In this document: positions 26,442-30,981 of the stretch, one piece after another
Layout of the letters: each line of letters starts with the position of its first letter
Position numbering within the stretch: the first letter of the stretch is position 1
Assembly: GCA_025353485.1 (NCBI GenBank)
Contig: JANXQO010000062.1
Span: 39,299 to 103,298 of the forward strand
Reading direction: 5' to 3'
Source of the DNA: Chitinophagales bacterium
GTDB taxonomy: Bacteria > Bacteroidota > Bacteroidia > Chitinophagales > Chitinophagaceae
DNA length: 64,000 nt
Translations under genes and position numbers: made by a program
Notes under the pieces: model-generated
Seen by the model: only the letters and a program-made list of their open reading frames with translations
Databases searched by the model: none
Told to the model about the DNA's origin: nothing

Positions 26442-26657
26442 TCATGGACATTTACCTTTTGTCCAGCTTGTGAGTCCTTCGCATTTGGCCTCGCAATCAT
26501 TGCCATATGTTTTTCCATCGCAGCCACACACGGGATCATATATTGCAGGGCAGATACATGAGGGAATAGCCAGTCCTTTACAGGATATTGTATTTTTTGT
26601 ACAGGAGGCAAAAAAAATAATTATAAAAATTGTAGTAGCTGAGAATAAATTTTTCAT
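26442..26657 (-). CDS. Kazal-type inhibitor-domain lipoprotein
   Basis: MKNLFSATTIFIIIFFASC lipobox; CPAIYDPVCGCDGKTYGNDCEAKCEG Kazal signature. Confidence 0.8.
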   Translation of the reverse strand: MKNLFSATTIFIIIFFASCTKNTISCKGLAIPSCICPAIYDPVCGCDGKTYGNDCEAKCEGLTSWTKGKCP

Positions 26658-26858
26658 AGCTGTCGGTTGATGATAAGGCTTTCCGCGATCGCTGCTGCTT
26701 TCTCTATTGTGGAAGCATATAAATCCTCCCCGCCAAAAGTTTTGAAAAGGTCTTGCTATTGCTGAATCCAGTAATCCCTCCTCTCTTACGCCAAGTGAAC
26801 CTCCATATTTTTGAATAGACAATTCATGTAGCTTAAGAATTTCGGCTTTCAAAATCAT
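26658..26858 (-). pseudogene. truncated, frameshifted Doc/Fic-family toxin
   Basis: MILKAEILKLHELSIQKYGGSLGVREEGLLDSAIARPFQ then a frameshift at the A-run (26740-26743); frame-corrected TFGGEDLYASTIEKAAAIAESLIINR* stops before the HPFxDGNKRTG active site. Confidence 0.75.
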
Positions 26859-27133: not shown

Positions 27134-29215
27134 ATGGATAAACTGGCGAATTATATAACAGGCAAATGGATTGAAGGTGATGGAGTGGGACAAACACTTT
27201 TTAATGCTGTTAACGGAGAAACAATAACAAATGCAACCACACAAGGATTGGATTTTACCTCCATGCTTGAATATGGAAGAACAGTGGGCAGCCCTGCATT
27301 ACGCAATATGACCTTTCAGGAAAGAGGAAGAATGTTGAGAGCTTTGGCATTACATCTTACAGAAAAAAAAGAACCCTTTTATACCATCAGTTATAAAACA
27401 GGTGCTACAAGAGCAGACAGTTGGGTAGATATTGAAGGCGGTATTGGCAATTTATTTTCCAATGCTTCATTAAGAAGAAGGCTACCCGATGATATTTTTT
27501 GCATGGATGGCGAAGGGATAGGATTGAGCAAGGGCGGCACTTTTATGGGGCAACATATTTTAGTTCCTAAAGAAGGAGTTGCCATTCATATCAATGCATT
27601 TAATTTTCCGGTGTGGGGAATGCTTGAAAAAATTGCTGTGAATTTATTGGCGGGTGTTGCAGCAATTGTAAAACCTGCATCTGTTACCTGTTACCTTACG
27701 CAGGCTGTTGTAAAAGAAATTATTGCTTCCAAAATTTTACCGGAAGGAGCATTGCAATTGCTTTGCGGCGGTGTGGGAGATCTTTTAGACCACGTTACTT
27801 CACAGGATGTAATCACTTTTACAGGTTCCGCCTCTACTGGGTTAAAATTAAAAGCGCATCCAACTATTTTAGATGAAAATGTTCCTTTTAATTTAGAAGC
27901 AGACTCTTTAAACTGTATTGTTTTGGGAGAAGATGTAACTCCGGAAAAACCCGAGTGGGATATTTTTATAAAAGAAGTTAGAAAAGAAATGACAGCAAAG
28001 GCTGGTCAAAAGTGTACTGCCATCCGTAGAATTTTTGTTCCTGAAAATAAAATGGAAGACGTTTGGAATGCCATCAGCAAATCTTTATCTCAAACAACAA
28101 TCGGCAATCCTGAAAATGAAAAAGTTAGAATGGGATCGCTTGCCGGGCAAACGCAACGGGATGAAGTAAAATCGCAGGTACAAAAGCTTTTGGCATCATC
28201 ACAAATAATTTATGGCAGCCTCGATAGCGTAGAAGTGATTGATGCAGATGCAAACAAAGGAGCTTTTATAAGTCCGCTTTTATTATTGAACGATAAACCT
28301 TTTGTTGGTGAAGAAGCCCATAACGTTGAGGCTTTTGGACCGGTGAGTACGATCATGCCTTATAAAAATTTAGACGAAGCAATTGAATTATCAAAAAAAG
28401 GAAAAGGTTCTTTGTGCAGTTCTATAGTAACTGCTGATACAACAATTGCAAGGGAATATGTGATCAATGCAGGCACTCATCATGGAAGAATTTTGGTATT
28501 GAATAATGAATGTGCCAAAGAAAGTACAGGGCATGGCTCGCCATTGCCTTTGCTGGTACATGGCGGCCCTGGCAGAGCCGGTGGTGGTGAAGAAATGGGA
28601 GGATTGCGTGGCGTAAAACATTATATGCAAAGAGTTGCAGTGCAGGGTTCACCCACAATGCTAACCGCTATCACAAATGTTTATCATGCAAATGCAAAAG
28701 GAAATATTACCGGTATTCATCCCTTTAAAAAATATTTTGAAGAATTACAAATAGGTGATCAACTAATTACAGAGAAAAGAAAAATTACCGGTGAAGACAT
28801 TGATAAGTTTGCCGAATTAAGTGGCGATCATTTTTATGCTCATATAAAAACAACTGATTTTTCTGATACAATGTTTGAGCAACAGGTAGCACACGGATAT
28901 TTTATTATGAGTATAGCCGCAGGACTTTTTGTTGACAGCTATGAAAAAAATCCTGTGCTTTTAAATTATGGAATTGATGAATTGCGTTTTACCAAACCTG
29001 TTTATGCCGGTCACGAAATTTATATCCGGTTTACCTGCAAAGAAAAAATTGAACAGGAATTAAAACCCCGGGAAAAAAACCCTGATGTTACTTTTATAAA
29101 AGGAAGTGATATACCGAAAGGAATTGTAAAATGGTATGTTGAAATTTTAGACGAAAGCGAAGAGCCTGTTGTAGGCGTGGCAACGATATTAACCATGGTG
29201 GCTAAGAAATATTAA
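27134..29215 (+). CDS. paaZ: bifunctional aldehyde dehydrogenase/enoyl-CoA hydratase (phenylacetic acid degradation)
   Basis: ALDH domain (NAFNFPVWGMLEKIAVNLLAGVAAIVKPAS, AGQKCTAIRR) plus C-terminal MaoC domain (GEDIDKFAELSGDHFYAH). Confidence 0.93.
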   Translation: MDKLANYITGKWIEGDGVGQTLFNAVNGETITNATTQGLDFTSMLEYGRTVGSPALRNMTFQERGRMLRALALHLTEKKEPFYTISYKTGATRADSWVDIEGGIGNLFSNASLRRRLPDDIFCMDGEGIGLSKGGTFMGQHILVPKEGVAIHINAFNFPVWGMLEKIAVNLLAGVAAIVKPASVTCYLTQAVVKEIIASKILPEGALQLLCGGVGDLLDHVTSQDVITFTGSASTGLKLKAHPTILDENVPFNLEADSLNCIVLGEDVTPEKPEWDIFIKEVRKEMTAKAGQKCTAIRRIFVPENKMEDVWNAISKSLSQTTIGNPENEKVRMGSLAGQTQRDEVKSQVQKLLASSQIIYGSLDSVEVIDADANKGAFISPLLLLNDKPFVGEEAHNVEAFGPVSTIMPYKNLDEAIELSKKGKGSLCSSIVTADTTIAREYVINAGTHHGRILVLNNECAKESTGHGSPLPLLVHGGPGRAGGGEEMGGLRGVKHYMQRVAVQGSPTMLTAITNVYHANAKGNITGIHPFKKYFEELQIGDQLITEKRKITGEDIDKFAELSGDHFYAHIKTTDFSDTMFEQQVAHGYFIMSIAAGLFVDSYEKNPVLLNYGIDELRFTKPVYAGHEIYIRFTCKEKIEQELKPREKNPDVTFIKGSDIPKGIVKWYVEILDESEEPVVGVATILTMVAKKY

Positions 29216-29231: not shown

Positions 29232-29252
29232 CATAGGCACATAGATACATAG
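29232..29252. repeat. left inverted repeat flanking the GxxExxY gene
   Basis: CATAGGCACATAGATACATAG, ends immediately before the ATG at 29253. Confidence 0.85.
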
Positions 29253-29666
29253 ATGATAACACAGAAATATTTAGATGATTTAACCTATCAACTGATAGGA
29301 GCCGCTATTGAGGTACACAAAGAATTAGGTCCCGGATTATTAGAGAGTGTATATGATAAATGTTTTAAAAGCGAAATAGCACGTAAAGGCTTACAATATC
29401 AATCGCAATTATATGTACCTGTAGTTTATAAAAATTTACAGTTAGACACTGAATTAAGACTTGATTTCTTAGTAGAAGAATTAATTGTAGTTGAATTAAA
29501 AGCTACCGAATTCATTCATCCTTTGTATGAAGCACAGCTATTGACATATATGAAACTGCTACAAAAGCCAAAAGGTTTATTAATTAATTTCAATTGCACA
29601 AATATTTTTAAAGAAGGACAAAGAACAAGAGTAAATGAACTGTATTCTTCTTTGCCTAAAACTTAA
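29253..29666 (+). CDS. GxxExxY family protein (PD-(D/E)XK-like)
   Basis: GAAIEVHKELGPGLLESVYDKCFKSEI and RLDFLVEELIVVELKATE. Confidence 0.92.
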   Translation: MITQKYLDDLTYQLIGAAIEVHKELGPGLLESVYDKCFKSEIARKGLQYQSQLYVPVVYKNLQLDTELRLDFLVEELIVVELKATEFIHPLYEAQLLTYMKLLQKPKGLLINFNCTNIFKEGQRTRVNELYSSLPKT

Positions 29667-29687
29667 CTATGTATCTCTGTACCTATG
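29667..29687. repeat. right inverted repeat flanking the GxxExxY gene
   Basis: CTATGTATCTCTGTACCTATG, reverse complement CATAGGTACAGAGATACATAG (19/21 match to the left copy); starts immediately after the TAA. Confidence 0.85.
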
Positions 29688-29706
29688 TGGTAAAAAATAA
29701 AAAATT

Positions 29707-30474
29707 ATGCTTCAAACTCCTTACGTAAAATCTCACAACGAACACGGTATAACAACCATTGAATTTTTTCATTCGCAGAGTAATTCATTGCCGGCAAAAA
29801 TATTAGAGCAGCTTGCACATGAAATTCATTTTGCAGGAACGCATGAAGAAACAAAAGTTATTATTCTGCGCAGTGCAGGTGATGGTGCATTTTGCGCCGG
29901 TGCCAGCTTTGATGAACTTATTGCTATCAACAATGAAACCGAAGGGTTAAAATTTTTTAGTGGATTTGCTAATGTTATTAATGCAATAAGAAAGTGTAAA
30001 AAAATAATCATTGGGAGAATCCATGGTAAATGTGTTGGTGGCGGTGTAGGGCTGGCAGCATCTGTTGATTATGCGATTGCAGTAGATAAAGCAGAAATTA
30101 AATTAAGTGAACTGGCAATGGGAATCGGGCCATTTGTAGTAGGTCCTGCGATAGAAAGAAAGATCGGAACATCGGCATTTAGCCAGTTGGCAATTGATTC
30201 ATCGCTTTGGCGAAATGCAGAATGGGCAAAGCACAAAGGATTGTTTGCAGAAGTATATAATTCAATTGAGAATATGGATGAATCAGTTTACCGGCTTGCA
30301 AATTCTTTAGCACATTCCAACCCTGAGGCAATGATAGAAATGAAAAAAATATTCTGGAAAGGAACTGAACATTGGGATGAACTTTTAAAAGAGAGAGCGG
30401 CGATTAGTGGTAAACTTATATTAAGTGAGTATTCTAAAAATGCGATTAATGAATTTAAAGCGAAGAAAAGTTGA
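29707..30474 (+). CDS. enoyl-CoA hydratase/isomerase family protein
   Basis: GDGAFCAGASFDEL, GRIHGKCVGGGVGLAASVDYAIA. Confidence 0.9.
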   Translation: MLQTPYVKSHNEHGITTIEFFHSQSNSLPAKILEQLAHEIHFAGTHEETKVIILRSAGDGAFCAGASFDELIAINNETEGLKFFSGFANVINAIRKCKKIIIGRIHGKCVGGGVGLAASVDYAIAVDKAEIKLSELAMGIGPFVVGPAIERKIGTSAFSQLAIDSSLWRNAEWAKHKGLFAEVYNSIENMDESVYRLANSLAHSNPEAMIEMKKIFWKGTEHWDELLKERAAISGKLILSEYSKNAINEFKAKKS

Positions 30475-30559: not shown

Positions 30560-30784
30560 ATGCATAATTATAAAATTTTATTACAAAAGGAACCCGAAGG
30601 CGGCTTTACAGTTACAGTTCCCGCTTTGCCCGGCTGTATTACATACGGCGAAAATCTGGATGAAGCAATTGCGATGGCAAAAGAAGCAATTGAGCTTTAT
30701 ATTGAAGAACTTCGGGAACGTGGTGATGAAATCCCTGATAATAATAATACACTTGAATACTCTTTAAACTTAGAACATGCATGA
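30560..30784 (+). CDS. hicB: HicB family antitoxin
   Basis: EPEGGFTVTVPALPGCITYGENLDEAIAMAKEAIELYIEEL. Confidence 0.9.
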   Translation: MHNYKILLQKEPEGGFTVTVPALPGCITYGENLDEAIAMAKEAIELYIEELRERGDEIPDNNNTLEYSLNLEHA

Positions 30785-30981
30785 ACCTTTCGCCAAAGTA
30801 CTTGATAAAATTGCTTGAGCAAAACGGTTTTATTTTTAAACGTTCAAAAGGTTCTCACCATCTTTATTTTAATTCCGAAAAAAATATAACTGTTACTGTT
30901 CCTTTGCATGGAAATAAAGACATGGCAAAAGGAACTTTTATGGCAATACTTAAACAGGCTGGTATTGAAATAAAAAGGTAA
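30781..30981 (+). CDS. hicA: HicA family toxin
   Basis: LLEQNGFIFKRSKGSHHLYFN...VTVPLHGNKDMAKGTFMAILKQAGI; 4-bp overlap with hicB. Confidence 0.92.
   Translation: MNLSPKYLIKLLEQNGFIFKRSKGSHHLYFNSEKNITVTVPLHGNKDMAKGTFMAILKQAGIEIKR

Follow-up and report, generated by a model that had tools for sequence, protein, structure and literature searches.

The 64,000-nt stretch analysed here, called the window, comes from a draft genome of 3.8 Mb in 189 contigs (G000). Between a gene for a PaaZ-like aldehyde dehydrogenase with MaoC (27134–29215, + strand), the 3' end of which faces the element, and a downstream enoyl-CoA hydratase/isomerase gene (29707–30474, + strand) lies a GxxExxY gene of the same strand (29253–29666), encoding a PD-(D/E)XK nuclease-like protein of 137 aa. 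As the earlier note had claimed, this gene is framed by an inverted repeat, whose arms of 21 nt each (29232–29252 and 29667–29687) are complementary at 19 of 21 positions, with 414 nt between them. The left arm adjoins the ATG (29253) and the right arm adjoins the TAA, which ends at 29666. Both arms are built of CATAG units about 8 bp apart. The left arm reads CATAGGCA CATAGATA CATAG on the + strand and its outer end is decayed, while the right arm (CTATGTATCTCTGTACCTATGTGGT, 29667–29691, + strand) runs on outward beyond the 21-bp match, which stops at 29687, to ..CCTATGTGGT (29691), and its outer GTGGT resembles the AACC/GGTT outer ends of related elements. Elsewhere in the window, genes for a HicB-like antitoxin and a HicA toxin follow the hydratase gene (30560–30981, + strand; HicB_lk_antitox 1e-15, HicA_toxin 3e-22), and an ORF at 26442–26858 (− strand) carries a C-terminal Kazal domain, its N-terminal part being Doc/Fic-fragment-like by eye only.

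The repeat stands out in its surroundings. Inverted repeats were scored in the 60-bp flanks of the 69 ORFs in the window that encode 100 aa or more; the GxxExxY ORF came first with 32, followed by an ORF overlapping the same repeat (27) and then by a score of 22. Searched with one mismatch allowed, ACATAGANACATAG has two matches in 64 kb, precisely the two arms, against 0.04 expected. A chance inverted repeat was rejected on these counts, together with the enrichment around 110 genes described below.

The protein matches PF13366 and TIGR04256 with E-values of about 1e-38, and both scores lie far above the cut-offs of the families (132.5 bits against 35 for TIGR04256; 129.7 bits against 22 for PF13366 PDDEXK_3). 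The GxxExxY motif (G28-E31-Y34) and the active site (D71, E81, K83) are present here and in 109–110 of 110 homologues; individually, D71 and K83 are found in all 110, E81 in 109, Q95 in 104 and Y99 in 106. An AlphaFold model (pLDDT 96) finds its best PDB matches, at marginal E-values, in Cas4 (SSO0001 on top), lambda exonuclease and AdnAB, so that a RecB/Cas4-like PD-(D/E)XK nuclease fold is predicted. No solved structure related by sequence was found. The protein falls outside Cas4 proper, with a profile score of 20.1 bits against a cut-off of 22.7 and two cysteines against the four needed. Profile searches revealed no known transposase domain, and a classic IS was rejected on this ground; profile and fold matches are solely PDDEXK/Cas4-like, without an HUH motif or Y1 catalytic tyrosine. 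Among intact orthologous copies dN/dS ranges from 0.02 to 0.16, a pattern indicative of purifying selection on the enzyme, and given the conserved catalytic residues it is therefore probably maintained for its predicted catalysis. Frameshifted or stop-containing copies are nevertheless frequent, and such decay beside a maintained enzyme would be expected, by analogy, of selfish or partly domesticated elements.

The Cas4-like fold, the weak Cas4 profile matches and the sporadic, multi-copy distribution of the gene could also fit a nuclease that protects its host or cuts element-free alleles, with the arms marking self DNA or guiding insertion. We hold this to be very unlikely, because no curated defence family was matched except Cas4 weakly, phage records gave no match and viral contigs only two, and homing would leave the dispersed gene-less hairpins described below unexplained. 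A phage origin was likewise rejected, with no match among phage records and two weak viral contigs.

The architecture is directly visible around homologues in general. We collected 110 GxxExxY genes with enough flank from the window's bacterial family, from bacteria and archaea at large and from two viral contigs; they belong mostly to Bacteroidota, with others from Planctomycetota, Chloroflexota, Proteobacteria and archaea, and stem from isolates as well as MAGs. Each upstream flank was aligned to the reverse-complemented downstream flank of its gene, and swapped, shuffled and other-ORF flanks served as controls. The median score was 31.5 (n = 110), compared with 16 for swapped flanks, 15.5 for shuffled flanks and 16 for other ORFs of the same loci, so the general lack of repeats among homologues that the earlier note had named as fatal to its reading does not apply. 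The 99th percentile of the controls was exceeded by 74 of the 110 genes (shuffled), by 59 (other-ORF) and by 43 (swapped), the swapped flanks being the strictest control because they retain repeat-like composition. The arms pair within an element, not between elements. The enrichment that had been proposed at start and stop codons is thus real, but direct contact is not the rule: the arms lie at a median of 12 bp ahead of the ATG and 10 bp past the stop codon, and the exact abutment in the window is a special case. For 25 of the 110 genes, no repeat spanning the gene and no hairpin beside it was detected. Within the window's bacterial family, 69 of 100 genomes carry GxxExxY genes, with up to 15 copies per genome. 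A draft of 189 contigs may raise the suspicion of an assembly artefact; the same architecture in 110 genes of isolates and MAGs from many phyla, and its recurrence at orthologous sites of several genomes, make chance or artefact a negligible explanation of the repeats. One match in Bacteroides, at first sight on a plasmid, seems to lie on a piece of chromosome, judging by its thrA and radA genes.

The arms fall into several types. Common arms consist of TTTAACC followed by CACAGAG, CGCAGAG, CGCAAAG, CACGAAG, CATTAAG, CATAAAAG or CACATAG units, and arms of the GFQEVIY clade have GTCTGAA..GATT. Self-matches of the arms peak at lag 9 and are raised at lag 8 too, the units being mostly 8–9 bp apart. 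Arm similarity follows protein identity (Mantel rho 0.386; 0.372 with GC difference removed; reached by 0 of 500 permutations). The CATAG type of the window also occurs with its closest homologues in Ignavibacteriaceae (L077) and Sphingobacteriales (L076) and with a second copy in its own genome (L007). Each GxxExxY subfamily may well be bound to its own arm sequence. Most of the eight PF13366 copies of G000 carry their own, differing arms, and the CATAG type was found there at only two genes and in a single further hairpin; it therefore gives no sign of recent spread. As a side observation, at four loci (L220, L276, L350 and L353) genes upstream of an element end at a stop codon within its arm (GTCTGA), and genes downstream apparently take their ATG start from the arm (ATCATGGTTCAGAC).

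Hairpins without a gene are widespread. A pattern of three arm units has about 54 matches in 100 genomes of the window's bacterial family, compared with none for the reversed pattern; many of these lie away from any gene, and several are gene-less hairpins (e.g., in G065 and G127). Such hairpins span about 60–125 bp with their arms back to back, are located at the 3' ends of genes, and in one case fold into a near-perfect stem (z −14). The hairpin of the L002 type (about 110–123 bp) is dispersed in G000, G015 and G008 at 70–99% identity, its ends T-TCTGAACC / GGTTCAGA-A being conserved and its middle variable. Hairpins at BepA-like, HPPD, TonB and SIMPL-domain genes of G000 (named by eye from translations) are missing from sister genomes. 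A tandem array of half-hairpin units of about 47 bp, ending in a complete hairpin, was seen at G000:C120:17159-17423 (L350).

The arm TCTGAACCATGATTTGGG, exact or with one mismatch, was counted 55 times in G000, 16 in G015, 14 in G008, 7 in G010 and twice each in G003 and G007, while the other 14 genomes and the control patterns gave 0. The sole two arms in G007 and in G003 flank the cognate gene, whose protein is 86% and 71% identical, respectively, the G003 copy being broken. G008 and G010 have hairpins and no close cognate gene, G008 being a sister species without any GxxExxY gene, and G016 has a 70%-identical protein and none of these arms. The link between hairpin and gene is therefore strong, yet not absolute.

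The position of the hairpins at 3' gene ends might suggest a role in RNA. The GxxExxY gene itself lies mostly 3' of a co-directional gene (75 against 9, a count whose background comprises too few gene pairs to judge a bias) and is probably read through, so that the arms could pair in the transcript for processing, stability or autoregulation, with rare spread by recombination or horizontal transfer. A precedent exists in the intervening sequence (IVS) of Coxiella 23S rRNA, an ORF within a stem of terminal inverted repeats that is cut by RNase III (PMC4990558). We consider this reading improbable, since spread at the DNA level is required to account for gene-less hairpins that are dispersed or nested and for the presence/absence polymorphism seen among sister species.

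This polymorphism is seen directly at several sites. Empty sites, for which the earlier note had proposed a comparison of paaZ-hydratase loci, do exist: in G008, the closest relative having both genes in reach (PaaZ 92% and hydratase 86% identical to the window genome over the compared stretches), a 27-bp gap without the element separates the two genes, and this genome (98% complete) gave no PF13366 match, compared with 8 in G000 and 4 in G015. The same site holds a frameshifted GxxExxY gene flanked by CATAG arms in G019, and remnants with other arms in two further relatives. G000 carries elements at nuoH-nuoI and preT-preA, where relatives have no GxxExxY gene. At trpG-trpD, G015 is occupied, G000 has the same outer arms without the gene, G003 is truncated and six others are empty; the trp element of G000 additionally contains a nested L002-type hairpin (L278 compared with L276). 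G007 and G018 share a syntenic site at which their GxxExxY genes belong to different subfamilies and have different arms. Many GxxExxY copies are vertically inherited or pseudogenes, and presence and absence may reflect a single gain with repeated loss or repeated insertion, which are not always distinguishable. Other sequences occupy some of these sites: an unrelated hairpin family, GCCCCNNNCCCC...GGGGNTAGGGGC, at nuoH-nuoI in G015 (L271) and G003 (L275), and a toxin-antitoxin-like gene pair, judged by eye, at preT-preA in G018 (L284).

The earlier inference of a self-contained element gains support from the generality of the repeats among homologues and from the empty sites in relatives. The window gene together with both arms is best regarded as a single small element, about 0.5 kb long, from a family that is widespread. 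Together, the gene-plus-hairpin units and the scattered gene-less hairpins suggest a family of tiny mobile elements.

No consistent target-site duplication was detected at paaZ-hydratase, trpG-trpD, nuoH-nuoI, preT-preA or nine hairpin sites, and none was consistent at the four polymorphic hairpin sites either. In the two readable cases, the nested L278 hairpin and the BepA-like site, 15–19 bp of target DNA seem to be replaced, the divergence being too great for certainty. At one gene-bearing locus shared by several species (L004, L216, L224, L228 and L237), a GxxExxY element sits where a histidine kinase gene ends, and about 90 bp of the kinase 3' end flank it as a direct duplication.

A second protein family shows the same layout. 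Genes for the PF05635 four-helix-bundle protein (S23/IVP), for which no nuclease role is known, are multi-copy in the same bacterial family (75 of 100 genomes, up to 16 copies). Short units, e.g., AAGTTATAAGTATTAAGTT, GGATGTTGGATG or AGTATTTAGTAT, form inverted arrays on either side of these genes (L288–L317). Of 28 loci, 16 score above the 95th percentile for swapped flanks, and their arm sequences differ from those of GxxExxY. In rRNA, intervening sequences that carry S23/IVP genes and end in inverted repeats have been described (PMC4990558). Similar hairpins may thus be served by two proteins that are unrelated, or else a single process carries both proteins along as passengers. As passengers, GxxExxY and S23/IVP would be cargo ORFs in the loops of hairpins that are moved or made by other machinery, for example template switching during host replication or a transposase of a kind not yet known; the layout shared by the 16 S23/IVP loci, the lack of target duplication, the apparent replacement of target segments and the hairpins of G008 and G010 without a close cognate gene all fit this. 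We nevertheless judge it unlikely, because arm type co-varies with protein sequence, and near-invariant catalytic residues and purifying selection are not required of a pure passenger.

We favour, with moderate confidence, a REPIN-RAYT-like unit in which the nuclease lies beside its cognate hairpin and acts on this hairpin and on gene-less copies. The RecB/Cas4-like nuclease, as a dimer or multimer, would recognise the repeated units of its hairpin in extruded or single-stranded form and cut at or near the hairpin ends, and host repair or replication would copy the hairpin, whether gene-bearing or gene-less, to new intergenic sites. RAYTs are thought to spread REPINs by comparable copying. We infer the recognition, the cutting, the copying route and the role of the nuclease as mobiliser. 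The REPIN-RAYT-like reading is weakened because no target duplication was found and 15–19 bp of target seem replaced, and because S23/IVP genes have the same inverted-array enclosure, so that the ORF may not be the mobiliser. More tentative still is the bolder proposal that a PD-(D/E)XK nuclease of RecB/Cas4 type alone drives replicative hairpin spread in many phyla, without a transposase and with the target replaced rather than duplicated, S23/IVP being a second such lineage. If true, the favoured reading would propose a function and a substrate for the very common GxxExxY family, which has none; intergenic repeats of a widespread class, among them ACCACAGAGACACAGAG and GTCTGAACCATGATTTGGG, would be explained as components of a single family of elements; a way of life like that of REPIN-RAYT would have arisen also with an unrelated nuclease; and a connection to the unexplained S23/IVS elements would be drawn.

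Among known systems, Cas4/RecB nucleases share the predicted fold and the QxxxY motif with GxxExxY, SSO0001 being the closest structure; in contrast, GxxExxY has about 130 aa, stands alone outside CRISPR context and has too few cysteines for the Cas4 iron-sulphur cluster. Like MITE and IS elements, the GxxExxY elements have terminal inverted repeats, gene-less miniature copies, a nested insertion and empty sites, but they carry no DDE or tyrosine transposase, show no detected target duplication, and have ends that co-vary and differ among copies of one protein family. With the 23S rRNA IVS (S23p) they share a small ORF inside long-stem terminal inverted repeats and a sporadic distribution, and similar inverted arms of tandem units also enclose the S23 genes of the window's bacterial family. 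However, S23p is a helical bundle and GxxExxY a predicted nuclease, and the GxxExxY elements are intergenic rather than in rRNA, with gene-less hairpins dispersed; the window ORF is PDDEXK_3 and lies between paaZ and hydratase, outside the S23p IVS class. No description of repeats flanking GxxExxY genes was found in the open-access literature, where the family is named in passing only; GxxExxY is already known as a protein family, and the gene-plus-hairpin elements may be an undescribed family.

The closest likeness is to REPIN-RAYT systems (PMC3116915, PMC8266576): a gene flanked by palindromic repeats that are cognate to it, numerous gene-less inverted pairs scattered through intergenic DNA, a repeat type that follows the protein, orphan hairpins without a gene, and a gene under purifying selection. 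The GxxExxY elements have dispersed gene-less inverted pairs with the ends of the gene (L002 type; G065 and G127), the CATAG type of the window contributing one extra hairpin only, and their repeats co-evolve with the protein at the Mantel correlation given above. They differ in their arms, in which short degenerate units follow one another mostly at 8–9 bp, and in their enzyme, a predicted RecB/Cas4-like PD-(D/E)XK nuclease where RAYT (TnpA-REP) is HUH/Y1; they occur in Bacteroidota, Planctomycetota, Chloroflexota and others. The RAYT analogy of the earlier note thus holds for the anatomy, in dispersed gene-less hairpins and arm-protein co-variation, and fails for the enzyme. The GxxExxY system lacks the defining HUH/Y1 enzyme and is not a member, and it is nearest to REPIN-RAYT in anatomy and dynamics.
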